Of a stretch of 64,000 nucleotides of DNA, positions 7,927-15,185 are shown in pieces. The position numbers and the translations under genes were made by a program. Position 1 is the stretch's first letter; each line of letters begins with the position of its first letter. Source of the stretch: Galbibacter marinus (GTDB taxonomy: Bacteria; Bacteroidota; Bacteroidia; Flavobacteriales; Flavobacteriaceae). A model generated the notes under the pieces. That model worked only from the letters and a program-made list of their open reading frames with translations, was not told where the DNA came from and did no database searches. The stretch spans positions 1 through 64,000 of the forward strand of contig NZ_AMSG01000006.1 of the NCBI RefSeq assembly GCF_000300875.1. Reading direction: 5' to 3'.

Positions 7927-10278
7927 ATGACAAAAGAGGCTCCATTCGAGGTTTTAATTAGCTTTCATAAGCTGTTGGATAAGTATGAGTCCTTAGCACA
8001 AAGCAAAAATAAGCTTCAGGCAAAAAAAGCCAAAGAAATTTTGGAGTTAGCCGGTAGCCATAGTGAGCTACGCAATGGTATAGTGGATAGAAGCAGGGTA
8101 GGTGAGTTTCAAGAGATTATTGACGCTATGCTTCAGGATTCTTTCTCTTCGATACTTTCGGAAAATGAAATTAAAATCGCCGGGATTCCTTTTGAATATG
8201 CTAACTTCCAGACCACACAACGATTCGATAAGATTATAGAGGACGCAGGTAAGGATTTCTTTTTGCATATGAGGGATCTTCCTGATGGTCAAATGTACGT
8301 ACTCCAATGTGCCATAATACTTACGATGTACTATAAAATTGATATCAATTTTAAACGGACATTGTACTTTGATATTCCTGATAAATATGGAATAATGAGA
8401 CATTACCGTATTATGTACAATGCGGATTTTATGGACTTTATACCCACAGATAAAGCAAAGGATTTAACCCAAGAAGATATAGAGGAATTGCTGGATGGAT
8501 TTGATAATTTGGAATTGTGGAAGGAAAAATTCCCGCCCAATAGCTGGATTGCAAAAGGTTTTGTCATTTCAAGTCTCTTTGATACTACTCTGGATCATTC
8601 GATCTCCAACCTAAAAACGACCCTACTGGAACGCAGTAGTGGAGATTTGCACCTGATTCAGAGGTTACAAAATATATTTAGATCCTTTTTTAATATTCGT
8701 GATCTGGAAGTAGGTTTCTCAATCTATGATAATCGGAACTTCACTTTTGAACGCTTGACCTCCGGTCTGCCTAGTTTCCTGTTATGTGATCTTAAAGAGA
8801 TGGATTGTAAAACGCTCCTTTGTCAGCAAAGCAGGGAGGTGCTGCTTAAGGATAAAAGGTACCTTGCCATTTCGGATGTTGAGAAGAAAACAGCAATGCA
8901 GTGTGGGGATATGCCTTATAAAGTTCTTAACGATCAAGGACTTAAAAGTGCGATCTTAATACCAATAAATACTGGAGAAAAATTGGTTGGTGTTTTGGAA
9001 TTAGTTTCCAAAAAGAGCTATGAACTCAACAGTATCAACGCTAAAAAATTAGACGATATTTTACCCTATATCACCGCTGCGGTGGTACGCTCAAATAATG
9101 AATTAGAAAATGAAATAGAAGCTATTATTCAAAATGAATATACTTCGATACATGAGAGCGTGAAGTGGAAATTTGTCAAGGAAGTAAAACGCTTTATTGA
9201 CGAGCGTGCAATTGGCAACAACATGGCCTTTAAGGATATTACCTTTAAAGAAGTGCAGCCTCTTTACGGACAGGTAGATATACAAAATTCTTCCACTTCA
9301 AGAAATAAAGCTACCCAGAGAGATTTGGCAAAGCAGCTTGAACTTTTAGGAGAGATATTCAGTACCTTAATGAGTATTCACCGCATACCGATCTATGAAG
9401 AATACCAATTTAGAGTATTCAACTTTTTGGAAGAGGTGAAGAAATCATTTAAGACAGGTACTGAACAACGAATCATTGATTTTATCAATGAAGAAATACA
9501 TCCTTCCTTGGATCAAATAGCATTGATGGATCCTTCGTTAGATGTTTTAGTAAGCGGTTATAGGGATCATTTGGACACGAATTTACAAATGGTCTACGAC
9601 CACAGACAAAATTATGACGATGCGGTAACCGCTGTAAACAAGCGCTTGACGCGTGTAATAGACCAGCACCAAAAAGACGCGCAATTGATGTTTCCTCATT
9701 ATTTTGAGCGCTATAAAACTGATGGCGTGGAGCATACCATGTATATAGGTGAATCCATTACTCCTGGAGCCGGTTATAGCGACTTGTACCTTCAGAATTT
9801 GAAACTGTGGCAATTGGAAACAATTTGTGCCATGGAAAATGCATTTTATGAGCTTAAGCCGGAATTAGAAGTGGATTTTGAAGTCACCTCTATGGTTCTA
9901 GTGCACAGTTCTCCTTTATCAATAAAGTTCCGAATGGATGAGAAACACTTTGATGTGGATGGTACGTATAATGCCCGCTATGAGGTTATTAAAAAACGTA
10001 TTGATAAATCTTTGATTAAAGGAACCAATAGACGTATTACGCAACCAGGAAAAATTGCAATCATTTACTCCCAGGAGAAAGAAGAGCTTGAATACCTACG
10101 GTATATTCGCCTTCTGCAAGCCAAGGGGATGTTGAATGACAAGATTGAGATTCATGAGTTAGAAGAACTGCAGGGTGTCAGTGGATTAAAGGCCATTTCA
10201 GTGGAAATCCTTTATTCCAATGAGGCTAATGAAAAGAGTAAATTGACCTATGATGACCTTGTGAAGTCTATGGCTTAG
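7927..10278 (+). CDS. GAF domain-containing protein (783 aa)
   Basis: Long ORF; central LKSAILIPINTGEKLVGVLELVSKKSYELNSINAKKLDDILPYI is GAF-like. Confidence 0.75.
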   Translation: MTKEAPFEVLISFHKLLDKYESLAQSKNKLQAKKAKEILELAGSHSELRNGIVDRSRVGEFQEIIDAMLQDSFSSILSENEIKIAGIPFEYANFQTTQRFDKIIEDAGKDFFLHMRDLPDGQMYVLQCAIILTMYYKIDINFKRTLYFDIPDKYGIMRHYRIMYNADFMDFIPTDKAKDLTQEDIEELLDGFDNLELWKEKFPPNSWIAKGFVISSLFDTTLDHSISNLKTTLLERSSGDLHLIQRLQNIFRSFFNIRDLEVGFSIYDNRNFTFERLTSGLPSFLLCDLKEMDCKTLLCQQSREVLLKDKRYLAISDVEKKTAMQCGDMPYKVLNDQGLKSAILIPINTGEKLVGVLELVSKKSYELNSINAKKLDDILPYITAAVVRSNNELENEIEAIIQNEYTSIHESVKWKFVKEVKRFIDERAIGNNMAFKDITFKEVQPLYGQVDIQNSSTSRNKATQRDLAKQLELLGEIFSTLMSIHRIPIYEEYQFRVFNFLEEVKKSFKTGTEQRIIDFINEEIHPSLDQIALMDPSLDVLVSGYRDHLDTNLQMVYDHRQNYDDAVTAVNKRLTRVIDQHQKDAQLMFPHYFERYKTDGVEHTMYIGESITPGAGYSDLYLQNLKLWQLETICAMENAFYELKPELEVDFEVTSMVLVHSSPLSIKFRMDEKHFDVDGTYNARYEVIKKRIDKSLIKGTNRRITQPGKIAIIYSQEKEELEYLRYIRLLQAKGMLNDKIEIHELEELQGVSGLKAISVEILYSNEANEKSKLTYDDLVKSMA

Positions 10279-11462
10279 ATCAGTCCGAATGACAACCCGA
10301 AGGTTAGCACTGAAATGATCAGCCCAAATAGAAACACATAATAGGTTATTCTAAGGAGTCTATACTTTTTTGCCAGGACTGTTCCTAAGGAATGAAGATC
10401 CTTTGTCATGGATTCGTAAATATAATCTCGTTCTTGGATCATCTCCATAACTGCGTCTTCATATTCTTCATATTTCATTTTGTGAAAATTTCCAAAAAAG
10501 AGGAGGTTAACATTTCTGTTATCTAAATCCTCTCTGGTAAACTTGCCGGAGGATAGGTTTGGCTTTGTGGAGAGTACTGCAAATATTACCGAGACAACAC
10601 TAAAGACGACCAATACTAAGGTGGGTATTATGAGGTGTTGATTGGATGGGCTGTCTAATTTAGGAATAAGATTTGAAAGTGCTAATGAGATGATAATGGC
10701 ATTGATAGATAAAAGAATATTGGCTTTAGTGTCTGCAATGGCACTGAGTTGAATATGATTTCGTAATGAAACTCTAAATAAGGTTTGAACACCTCTATCC
10801 GGATTTTCCTGTTTGTTTTTAGCTTTTTGGGTTTTTCGAATCAGTTCATTAATATTGTTCAACTTCCCGAGTCCCCAATTTTCGCGCGCAAAACTAGTAT
10901 AGTACTGATGCTTGTTGTTTAGTACTTCGATGTTTTTTTCCCTCCATTGTTCCGTGGTGTATTCAGCAATTCCCAGTAACTGAAGTTCTTGTTGTAGTAA
11001 TTCTGATATTTTGGAGAAATTCTCATCGGAAAAGTGATAACTATCGGCGTCCTTAATGATTTCTTCCATAAGGTTGGTAGGCTTATGATCCATTTTAGTG
11101 GCCATGATGACCTGTATGACAGCGTCAATTTTTTCGACATCATAGTTTTGTTGCGTCAAGAAATTTTTAGTGATTTGACAACTCGTTTCTTCATGAACCT
11201 CATTACCTTTGGTATACCCTAAATCGTGTAACCAGGCCGCGATGATAATTATTTCTTGCTCAGAAGGACTTACTTCTAAGGCTTCACAAATTGTTTTTGC
11301 CGCGTTGACTACTCTTTCTGTGTGAATGAGGTTATGATATAGATAGTTTTTGTCTAATTTAGTAGTTAGTAAATTTTTGGCGTATTCTGATACTTTATCT
11401 ATAATCATAACTTGTGGTAATGCGTAAGTGGAAATTTCATATAATATTACAAAATTAAACAT
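10275..11462 (-). CDS. HD domain + Pycsar effector-like (PycTM/DUF5706-like) transmembrane protein
   Basis: N-terminal HD phosphohydrolase motifs (YHNLIHTERVV, AAWLHDLGYT, EIIKDADSYHF); C-terminal TLFRVSLRNHIQLSAIADTKANILLSINAIIISLALSNLIP plus TM helices typical of Pycsar effectors. Confidence 0.8.
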   Translation of the reverse strand: MFNFVILYEISTYALPQVMIIDKVSEYAKNLLTTKLDKNYLYHNLIHTERVVNAAKTICEALEVSPSEQEIIIIAAWLHDLGYTKGNEVHEETSCQITKNFLTQQNYDVEKIDAVIQVIMATKMDHKPTNLMEEIIKDADSYHFSDENFSKISELLQQELQLLGIAEYTTEQWREKNIEVLNNKHQYYTSFARENWGLGKLNNINELIRKTQKAKNKQENPDRGVQTLFRVSLRNHIQLSAIADTKANILLSINAIIISLALSNLIPKLDSPSNQHLIIPTLVLVVFSVVSVIFAVLSTKPNLSSGKFTREDLDNRNVNLLFFGNFHKMKYEEYEDAVMEMIQERDYIYESMTKDLHSLGTVLAKKYRLLRITYYVFLFGLIISVLTFGLSFGLI

Positions 11463-11477
11463 ATTCTAAATACAAAG

Positions 11478-14400
11478 TTGATGAAAAAATCTTGGTTCCT
11501 GTGGCAGTTAATTTTACTTGGAATAGTAGTAGGTTCATGTGCTACTTATACTTCTAAAGTTAAGGTAGGTTCAAATTCATCTAACTATCCACTGGATAAA
11601 CAGTTGGATCATAGATTTTTTTTAATAGGTGACGCCGGTTTATCCAAAAATGGAAAGCCGTCTGACGCCCTGACAATTTTTCAAAACGCAGTATCCAAAA
11701 GCACCAAAAATGATGTTGTTCTTTTCTTGGGCGATAATATTTACCCCAATGGCCTGCCGGAAGTAGGGGAGCCGGGAAGAGCGGATGCGGAATTTCAGCT
11801 TAACACTCAGCTCAATGCGGTTAAGGATGCCAAGGCTCAGGTGCTGTTCATTCCCGGAAACCATGATTGGTATAGTGGTGGCATTCCAGGGCTGGAGCAA
11901 CAAGAAGAATTTATTGAATCCGTGATACAGCAAAAAAAAGTGTTTTTACCGAGCGATGCATGTGGATTGGAAGATGTTGATATTTCCGAAAGTGTTCATT
12001 TGATTATAATCGATTCAGAGTGGTTTTTGGAAGATTGGGACAAACATCCTACCGTTAATGACGATTGTGAAATAAAAACTCGAAAGAAATTTTATGAAGA
12101 ATTCGAGGGGATGCTTAAAAAGAATGAGGGTAAGACTGTTATTGTAGCGATACATCATCCCTTAAATACCTATGGTACCCATGGAGGGTATTTCTCAGCA
12201 GATAAACATCTTTTTCCTTTTCAAAACAAAGTACCGCTTCCAGTGATTGGTAGTCTGATCACACAGGTTAGAAAAACAGGAGGTGTGTCGGTCCAAGACA
12301 TTCAAAACCAACGCTACAAAGCCCTTAGGGATCGTTTAGAAGCTATTGCCATGGTGGCTCCGGCGAATGTAATTTTTACCTCCGGGCATGATCATTCCAT
12401 GCAGTACATAGAAAATGACAACTACAAACAACTGATCTCGGGTTCTGGTTCAAAAGAATCCCCGACTAAACTCACCGGAGATGCACTTTTTGTATCCGGA
12501 AAACAAGGTTACGCCACATTGGATGTTTTTAAAGACGGCTCGGTATGGGCACGTTTTTATACTTCAAGAAACGGGCAGCCTTATTTAGAATTTCAAAAAG
12601 AAATATACCCTGCTCAAGAAGATCAATATGTCGATGAATTTCCAAAGGAGTACCCACAGCATGTGATGTCGTCTATTTATCCAACTGACGAGACTATCAA
12701 ATCTAAAGGATATCAAAAGTTTTGGGGAGAGCATTACCGGAAACTTTACGGGACACCGATTAAGGCTAGAGTAGCGCTTTTGGACACGCTCTATGGGGGA
12801 CTGACTCCGGTGCGTAAAGGTGGAGGGCATCAGACCAGGACCTTGCGGCTTGAAGATCCTCAAGGTAGGGAGTACAATATGAGAGCTGTTAAAAAAAGTG
12901 CTGTTCAATTTCTACAAAAAGTGGTATTGAAGGATCACAAGCTTTCTATCGACGATCTTTCAGAGACCTTGCCGGAATCCTTACTGATGGACTACTATAC
13001 GGCATCTTATCCTTATGCGGCATACCCTGTATCAGAACTTTCCAAGGCCATAGAGATTTATCATACCAACCCTGAGCTATTTTACATTCCTAAACAACAG
13101 CGTCTGGGGAAATATAATTCAGAGTACGGAGATGAATTGTATTTGATTGAAGAGCGCCCTGCAAAGGAGCATCAGAATGTTGCGAGTTTCGGGTATGCTG
13201 AAGATATTGAAAGCACCGATGACCTGTTCAAAAAACTTCGAAAGGATGAAGAGAATGTTCTGGATGAAAACGCTTATATCAGAGCGCGATTGTTTGATAT
13301 GCTTATAGGAGATTGGGATCGTCATGGAGATCAGTGGCGTTGGGCAGAATTTAAGGGAGAAGAACAAACGGTATACCGATCAATTCCAAGAGATAGGGAT
13401 CAGGCCTTTGCAGATTTCGACGGTAGCTTTTTAGCTGTAGTTCGGGCCTTAATGGCTCCTGCAAAAATGTTGCAACCTTATGGGCCGGAAATTGATCATC
13501 TGCGTTGGATTAATACTGAACCATTGCCTATGGATAGGGCCTTAATCCGAAATAGCGATCAAGAGGATTGGGTGAGGGAAGCTAAGTTTATTCAAGATCA
13601 CCTGACTGAACAGGTTATCGACCAGGCTTTTATGACTGTTCCTGCCGAGGTACGAGAAGAAACAATGAAAAAAGTAAAGCCTTTGTTAATGCAGCGACAC
13701 GATGGATTAGTAACTACAGCTAAGGATTATTATAAATTGGTGGACAAGGTTGCGATATTACACGCAACTGATAAGGATGATTATATAGAAGTGATACGAT
13801 CCGGTCCAAAAGAAACCAGGGTTGTAATTCACAGGATAAAAAAAGGAGAAAAGGCTGATCTGATTGTAGATAAAACCTATCATAAGGATGTCACCAAAGA
13901 ACTGTGGATATACGGGCTGGATGACAAGGATGTTTTTGAGGTTAAAGGACAAGGGAAACAACCGATGCTGGTACGATTAATAGGCGGGCAAAACAGGGAC
14001 ACCTATAAAATACGAAACGGTAAAAAAGTACGCTTTTACGATTTTAAATCTAAAGATAATATTGTTGAGGTCAATAATGGGGGAACCAAACGCTTTAGCG
14101 ATAAATACGATACTAATATTTTCACCTTTGGAAAGAGTAATTACAGTACCTATACACTGTTGCCGAGTTTAGGTTATAATGCAGATGCCGGCTTTATCGC
14201 AGGGGTGAATTATGCTATTACCAATTATGGATTCGAGAGAAATCCATTTAGTTCAAAACATAGTATAGGAGTTAATTTCCATTTTGCCACTTCCGGTATT
14301 GAATTGAAATATGATGGGGAAAGTTCCGGGATTTTCCATAAGCTGAATTTAGCGTATGGTTTAAAATATAACAGTCCGACTTATGCCAGGAACTTCTTTG

Positions 14401-15185
14401 GCTTCGGAAATCAAACCATGAATTTAGAAGATGATTTTGGGAAGGATTATTATCGCTCGAATTGGAGTAACCTAAGGGGGTATCTCGGACTGGTAAAAAG
14501 GTCTGAATATGGGGGTGTGCTCTCTGTCAAAGCAATTTTTGAAGGAGCTCAGGTAGAGGATACGCAGAATAGGTATATTACCACATATAATTCTGATGCT
14601 TCCTTTTTCGATTGGCGCTATTTTGCCACAGCAGAGGTAGGTTTTGAGTATGAAAGCTACGATGTTCCGGTAAATCCCAGTCGTGGAATGTATTTTAAAA
14701 CTACTCTTGGTTATACCCTTAACTTATCGGGTAGCAGCACATCCTTTGCTTACTTAGATCCACAAATCACTTTTTATAATCCTTTGAGCCAGAATCATAG
14801 ATGGGTGCTAAAGACCAATGTACAGAGCCAACTTAATTTTGGAGATGATTTTGAGTTTTACCAGGCTCCTTACCTAGGAGGGAATAGTGGTCTTAGAGGC
14901 TATCGCATCAACCGATTTACCGGAAACAAAAGCTTGGTGTTTAACGGTGATATTCGACACACCTTCAACTCTTTTAAAACACCGATTCTTCCCGTAAATT
15001 TAGGTGTTTACGGCGGAGTGGATCTCGGTAGAGTATGGGTTGACGGTGAAGATTCCAAACAATGGCATAACTCCGTTGGAGGGGGTGTGTTTTTAGTGGC
15101 CAGTGAACTGGTAAACTTAGACCTATCCTACTTTAACTCTAAAGAAGGAAATAGATTTACCCTTGGGTTTAGGGCGAGTTTTTAA
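11478..15185 (+). CDS. Metallophosphoesterase with FAM20/PI3K-like motif region and C-terminal BamA/TamA-like outer-membrane barrel
   Basis: 1235 aa; lipoprotein signal; FLIGDAGLS...FLGDNIYPNG...IPGNHDW...SGHDHSMQ metallophosphoesterase motifs; C-terminal surface-antigen type barrel ending FTLGFRASF. Confidence 0.85.
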   Translation: MMKKSWFLWQLILLGIVVGSCATYTSKVKVGSNSSNYPLDKQLDHRFFLIGDAGLSKNGKPSDALTIFQNAVSKSTKNDVVLFLGDNIYPNGLPEVGEPGRADAEFQLNTQLNAVKDAKAQVLFIPGNHDWYSGGIPGLEQQEEFIESVIQQKKVFLPSDACGLEDVDISESVHLIIIDSEWFLEDWDKHPTVNDDCEIKTRKKFYEEFEGMLKKNEGKTVIVAIHHPLNTYGTHGGYFSADKHLFPFQNKVPLPVIGSLITQVRKTGGVSVQDIQNQRYKALRDRLEAIAMVAPANVIFTSGHDHSMQYIENDNYKQLISGSGSKESPTKLTGDALFVSGKQGYATLDVFKDGSVWARFYTSRNGQPYLEFQKEIYPAQEDQYVDEFPKEYPQHVMSSIYPTDETIKSKGYQKFWGEHYRKLYGTPIKARVALLDTLYGGLTPVRKGGGHQTRTLRLEDPQGREYNMRAVKKSAVQFLQKVVLKDHKLSIDDLSETLPESLLMDYYTASYPYAAYPVSELSKAIEIYHTNPELFYIPKQQRLGKYNSEYGDELYLIEERPAKEHQNVASFGYAEDIESTDDLFKKLRKDEENVLDENAYIRARLFDMLIGDWDRHGDQWRWAEFKGEEQTVYRSIPRDRDQAFADFDGSFLAVVRALMAPAKMLQPYGPEIDHLRWINTEPLPMDRALIRNSDQEDWVREAKFIQDHLTEQVIDQAFMTVPAEVREETMKKVKPLLMQRHDGLVTTAKDYYKLVDKVAILHATDKDDYIEVIRSGPKETRVVIHRIKKGEKADLIVDKTYHKDVTKELWIYGLDDKDVFEVKGQGKQPMLVRLIGGQNRDTYKIRNGKKVRFYDFKSKDNIVEVNNGGTKRFSDKYDTNIFTFGKSNYSTYTLLPSLGYNADAGFIAGVNYAITNYGFERNPFSSKHSIGVNFHFATSGIELKYDGESSGIFHKLNLAYGLKYNSPTYARNFFGFGNQTMNLEDDFGKDYYRSNWSNLRGYLGLVKRSEYGGVLSVKAIFEGAQVEDTQNRYITTYNSDASFFDWRYFATAEVGFEYESYDVPVNPSRGMYFKTTLGYTLNLSGSSTSFAYLDPQITFYNPLSQNHRWVLKTNVQSQLNFGDDFEFYQAPYLGGNSGLRGYRINRFTGNKSLVFNGDIRHTFNSFKTPILPVNLGVYGGVDLGRVWVDGEDSKQWHNSVGGGVFLVASELVNLDLSYFNSKEGNRFTLGFRASF

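Follow-up and report, generated by a model that had tools for sequence, protein, structure and literature searches.

The Pfam family PF00149, that of the calcineurin-like phosphoesterases, occurs in front of outer membrane barrels in one described group of proteins. Heinz and Lithgow listed this combination of phosphoesterase and Omp85 barrel in 2014 as the 'Metallo' subfamily of Omp85 proteins (PMC4104836). Their survey read PF00149 as a metalloprotease and named no domain between it and the barrel, and the functional guess offered there therefore rests on a misreading; Omp85 subfamilies without POTRA domains were already known (PMC4104836). CotH, HipA_C and DUF4135 are listed as families of the PKinase clan (PMC9758233), and mutants of CotH at Asp228 and Asp251 are inactive (PMC7821199). 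A search of open-access papers found no paper on a kinase domain in phosphoesterase-Omp85 proteins, and none that describes the middle domain treated here. The protein described here, from the window (the whole 64,000-nucleotide stretch of Galbibacter marinus DNA that was analysed), carries between its phosphoesterase and its barrel a domain that, judged from its predicted structure, almost certainly has a kinase fold.

The gene lies on the plus strand, in an ORF of 1235 codons that extends from a TTG at 11478 to 15185, with an ATG directly after it at 11481. The predicted lipoprotein (11481-15185; 1234 aa from the ATG, 1235 from the TTG) consists of phosphoesterase, kinase-fold domain, linker and Omp85 barrel. 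The ORF check and the Pfam scan agree with the initial annotation of this locus, which had reported a 1235-aa ORF with a metallophosphoesterase, a middle segment and a barrel in that order. The N-terminal signal peptide (11481-11540) is followed by the Cys of a lipobox, VGSC (Cys21), as judged from the position of the motif, and almost every full-length homologue likewise has a Cys behind a hydrophobic stretch, most often as C-A-T. Pfam matches above the cut-off were obtained for Metallophos (residues 46-248, E 8e-14) and Omp85 (residues 1022-1158, E 1.4e-9), with no credible Pfam family between them in the scan of the window protein. Scans of this protein against Pfam, NCBIfam, PHROGs and PADLOC did not convincingly assign the middle domain to any family, and no Pfam or NCBIfam family for it was found; a PADLOC match (PDC-M03A, E 8e-4) spans 24 residues at the catalytic-loop helix.

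The metallophosphoesterase domain (11613-12602, plus strand) was assigned from PF00149, its motifs and a structural match to GAP50. All five motifs of the purple acid phosphatase type (DxG, GDxxY, GNH(D/E), xxH and GHxH) were found, as GDAG (residue 51), GDNIY (85), GNHD (127), IHHP (225) and GHDH (303), and searches with simple patterns recovered them in 132-146 of the 155 ORFs of full length. Weak sequence matches of this region were to purple acid phosphatase and GAP50 proteins, and the purple acid phosphatase-like GAP50 was the sole non-barrel protein among the structural matches listed for the full-length model. Matches of the phosphatase region to designer PPR proteins were short and helical and were taken as compositional.

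At the other end of the protein, a 16-strand barrel of the Omp85 type (14142-15182, plus strand) is present in the full-length AlphaFold2 model (pLDDT 86.7, pTM 0.82), where it matches BamA and TamA in structure searches. Besides the 16 strands and the PF01103 match, it possesses the (V/L)RG(F/Y) L6 motif of the Omp85 superfamily, here GLRGYR (residues 1138-1143, 14889-14906, located by motif position). No POTRA domain was detected at the N-terminal side in the Pfam scan of the window protein, and none is evident in the full-length model. The barrel is preceded by a linker (13758-14132, plus strand) that is β-rich in this model and contains the RTX-like repeats YGLDDKD (residue 812) and IGGQNRD (residue 835). 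The GGxxxD and GLDDxD patterns of this linker (13911-14000) are common to most barrel-bearing relatives; from their sequence, calcium binding is possible.

The middle domain (~365 residues; residues ~395-760, 12660-13757, plus strand) was modelled with AlphaFold2 from a 68-row alignment with high confidence (pLDDT 90.2, pTM 0.90). A Foldseek search of this model against 350,542 PDB chains gave kinase-fold proteins as all 50 of the 50 matches listed. The top match was CtkA (E 3.6e-4, probability 1.00), and the list included PI4KII-alpha (0.99), CotH (0.98), WaaP (0.95), HipT (0.95), a FAM20-type Golgi kinase (up to 0.89), RIO2 and COQ8A. In BFVD, a library of viral models, most matches were again kinases, the first being a phage protein with a PI3/4-kinase domain (E 1.1e-6). 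TM-scores against CtkA are modest (0.38 by query, 0.49 by CtkA) and indicate that the match covers a partial core fold and that the middle domain is a divergent member of the superfamily, without a close relative among solved kinases. The structure check thus upholds the suggestion of the initial annotation that the middle segment is an atypical kinase-like domain. Its range (12690-13450) encloses the motifs, starting about 30 bases late and ending short of the folded domain, and of the FAM20/PI3K likeness that it proposed, PI4KII and FAM20 were indeed matched, with CtkA/HipA and CotH closest and FAM20 further down.

The elements of the model follow one another as in kinases. A glycine-rich hairpin, with the loop GGGHQT between two strands (residues 448-453, 12819-12836), is followed by a strand (residues 465-473) that ends in the predicted strand-3 lysine K473 of the sequence AVKK (12885-12896). 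A helix (residues 597-610) leads into the predicted catalytic loop ARLFDMLIGDWDRHGDQWRW (residues 603-622, 13284-13343), with D614 as the predicted catalytic Asp. Directly after a hairpin of two strands (620-626 and 631-637) comes the predicted metal-binding motif PRDRDQAF (residues 637-644, 13386-13409), all on the plus strand; the D-R-D motif as originally delimited corresponds to residues 633-649 (13374-13424). The triplet GGG (448-450), K473, D614 and D639/D641 are near-invariant and in kinase order.

At the sequence level, each match to a kinase family lies below the curated cut-off of that family. A more diverse profile of the domain, compared with PDB sequences, gave CtkA first (E 0.03), in an alignment that extends from a DRHxxNW loop through a C-terminal LxxRRxxL helix, and the first profile also aligns CtkA. 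Aligned by hhalign to CotH proteins from within the phylum, the domain scored 37.4 (E 3.5e-4), where 30 column shuffles reached at most 22.3; D614 is paired with the loop Asp of CotH, and the DRD with its DxD. The corresponding HipA comparison is barely above shuffles (25.0 vs 22.4). Pfam scans of the window protein and of the members of both profiles gave no match for FAM20C (PF06702) or PI3_PI4_kinase, and none above the gathering score for CotH (PF08757; best member E 0.013) or HipA_C (PF07804; best member E 0.09). Sub-threshold matches of members to CotH, HipA_C and DUF4135 occur among unrelated chance matches. A match to EnY2 (E 0.007), comprising 32 helical residues, was under the cut-off and was taken as chance. 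Taken together, the weak sequence evidence and the structure make a convincing case for the kinase fold.

Of 60 related genomes, 38 have relatives of the middle domain, for the most part in frames of ~1220-1270 aa; in a sample of 297 genomes across the phylum Bacteroidota, relatives occur in 114. The closest named relative is in Galbibacter pacificus (64% in the domain), and Flavobacterium johnsoniae encodes a homologue (locus L116). Four architectures occur: the domain between phosphatase and barrel; the domain with linker and barrel lacking the phosphatase (~860-960 aa); the domain with linker only (~500-590 aa, with a lipobox in most); and the domain alone after an N-terminal membrane anchor (~425 aa), with a conserved C-F-x-C end. 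Copies of this last, stand-alone form are those at L032-L037 and L168. The tree groups the sequences largely by architecture, with the anchored stand-alone copies together in a single clade; no neighbour gene common to the stand-alone copies was seen across the examined loci. A phage search gave no relatives, and a plasmid search gave five Bacteroidota records, four of them annotated as hypothetical protein.

Two neighbours of the window gene recur. A divergent gene on the minus strand (10275-11462) encodes a protein with an HD domain and a PycTM membrane domain of the Pycsar effector type; a relative of it is found at 56 of 80 examined loci, in 51 cases on the opposite strand. The setting of this HD-PycTM protein is conserved and apparently non-defence. 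The second, a weakly GAF-like protein of 783 aa (7927-10278, plus strand), is conserved at 42 of the 80. The two neighbours hint at a link to signalling.

Conservation of the putative active site was assessed in 176 distinct homologue sequences of the middle domain. D614 is found in 170 of the 176, Q619 in 164, D639 in 166 and D641 in 171; K473 is present in 171 of the 172 homologues that have the column, and the residues of the GGG loop are kept in 164-167. The conserved landmarks are GGGxQ, K473, D614 within GDWDRHxDQW, Q619 and D639-R-D641. The near-invariance of these residues means that the D-R-H and D-R-D motifs are not a product of chance, and their conservation in homologues, on which the original proposal hinged, is borne out. 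The Asn that kinases carry five residues after the catalytic Asp is absent, with Gln (Q619) in 164 of the 176 and Asn in one homologue (L170). D607, D612, W613, W620 and D686 are further invariant residues beyond the usual kinase set, and the stand-alone relatives, at ~30% identity, keep the same residue set.

Changed sites are found in tandem or nearby second copies, which carry H619 with N639, or S639 with N641. Such full-length second copies with changed residues (H619, N/S639) were observed at L042, L043, L069, L078, L086, L093 and L105; the four included in the tree form one clade. In family f23, Ser replaces D614 in L156 and L157, and other copies beside them keep the Asp. The active site is lost in at least four barrel-fused relatives (L165, L166, L167 and the first ORF of L169), whose genomes are distant within the phylum, which suggests that the domain also has uses that do not require catalysis. 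Kinase families often contain active copies next to inactive ones.

The N-terminal part of Omp85 proteins is periplasmic. The lipobox, the placement ahead of an Omp85 barrel and the precedent of PlpD make it probable, by analogy, that the phosphatase and kinase-fold domains of the window protein face the periplasm. The periplasm is generally thought to be without ATP, and a periplasmic kinase would thus have no obvious donor. The explanation that we favour, with moderate confidence, is that of an outer-membrane-anchored lipoprotein with two enzymes, one of them a periplasmic domain with a kinase fold of the CtkA/HipA/CotH type. From the conserved residues and the model, this domain is fairly likely to be an active phosphotransferase or nucleotidyltransferase. 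The Omp85 barrel would sit in the outer membrane, with the N-terminal lipid as an additional anchor, and the purple acid phosphatase-type and middle domains would hang in the periplasm. GGGxQ would bind the phosphates of a nucleotide and K473 position them, D614 would serve as catalytic base, and Q619 and D639/D641 would bind metal. The domain would most likely transfer a phosphate, or another nucleotide-derived group, onto a protein, lipid or glycan of the envelope located at the barrel or close to it; the phosphatase in the same chain would remove the transferred group or act on the same class of molecule. That kinase and phosphatase act on one substrate is doubtful. Only tentatively is it proposed that a phylum-wide Bacteroidota family of outer-membrane enzymes, each combining kinase fold and phosphatase in a single polypeptide on an Omp85 barrel, phosphorylates envelope molecules reversibly in the periplasm, or modifies them in a related, nucleotide-dependent way, with a phosphate donor that would be new to this compartment.

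The kinase fold could be real and the role of the domain chiefly a structural or regulatory one, as a pseudokinase-like platform that replaces POTRA under the barrel and recruits clients. Such a role, which is rather unlikely, would suit the supposed lack of ATP in the periplasm, the absence of any visible POTRA where Omp85 proteins normally have one, and the several barrel-fused relatives without catalytic residues; against it, 93-99% of the 176 homologues retain K473, D614, Q619, D639 and D641, among them proteins without the barrel and stand-alone copies, in which a platform would have nothing to hold up. An active kinase-fold enzyme with an unusual use of donor is somewhat less probable. 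It might adenylylate, as does SelO, an adenylylating kinase-fold protein, or employ a lipid-diphosphate donor, which would suit the periplasm, and both the intact site in a supposedly ATP-free compartment and the Gln at the Asn position, with the five extra invariant residues, would be in keeping with this. However, eukaryotic extracytoplasmic kinases that use ATP exist, namely those of the FAM20 group.

The initial annotation had instead proposed a surface protein. Export of both enzyme domains through or with the barrel, by type Vd secretion as first claimed for PlpD, would place them there, and that early proposal is discussed in PMC11116518. The patatin domain of PlpD was, however, later found to remain periplasmic, as has been shown (PMC11116518), and the tail after Cys21 of the window protein (ATYTSKVKVG) lacks an acidic export signal. 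Surface lipoproteins of Bacteroidota carry such a signal. With the lipobox and the position before the barrel also favouring the periplasm, a surface-exposed enzyme is quite improbable. Least credible of all is a coincidental likeness of the D-R-H and D-R-D motifs within an unrelated fold, for although every Pfam kinase match is sub-threshold and the motif weakly resembles the DWDxHHG stretch of HDAC6, the HDAC6 matches in the PDB cover ~40 residues at DWDxH and are absent with the more diverse profile, and kinases were retrieved from two independent structure libraries (PDB and BFVD).

On the preferred reading of a periplasmic two-enzyme lipoprotein, the fold itself is of a known kind, and it is the sequence family, the fusion and the location that set this protein apart. 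An unannotated domain, present in more than a third of the sampled Bacteroidota genomes, gains a concrete and testable identity. If active, it would bring kinase chemistry into the Gram-negative periplasm, ATP-free as that is thought to be, and suggest a role for an uncharacterised Omp85 subfamily; if inactive, it would represent a kinase fold occupying the site of POTRA under an Omp85 barrel. Either outcome would be new, and the homologue in F. johnsoniae lies in a tractable host.

Among known proteins, CtkA of Helicobacter pylori (PDB accession nos. 3akj, 3akk and 3akl) is the best match of the middle domain both in Foldseek and, with the diverse profile, among PDB sequences. The two share the DRHxxNW-type loop and the alignment of the C-terminal helix, whereas identity is ~10%, the Asn of CtkA is Gln here, and CtkA itself has no outer-membrane or phosphatase fusion. 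CotH (PF08757; Bacillus cereus, 5jd9) is the best profile-profile match and has in common with the domain the pattern G-[ND]-W-D ... [NQ] ... I-P-x-D-x-D; this alignment covers the C-lobe only, and the CotH proteins of the phylum are separate proteins. HipA_C/HipT kinases resemble the domain in the fold of HipT, a DxHxxN-type loop and sub-threshold HipA_C matches, but are cytoplasmic toxin-antitoxin proteins, unlike the outer membrane protein described here. FAM20 (4kqa/4kqb) and type II PI4K (4hnd) are kinase-fold matches with probabilities of 0.72-0.99; FAM20 is likewise extracytoplasmic and ranks under CtkA and CotH. In PlpD, too, an enzyme domain precedes an Omp85 barrel (PMC11116518), the difference being that it combines a lipase with POTRA and the window protein a phosphatase with a kinase fold. 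By its published description, the 'Metallo' subfamily has PF00149 N-terminal to a POTRA-less barrel, as here (PMC4104836). From sequence profiles and predicted structure, the putative kinase domain is most closely related to the CtkA/HipA and CotH types, and less so to FAM20.
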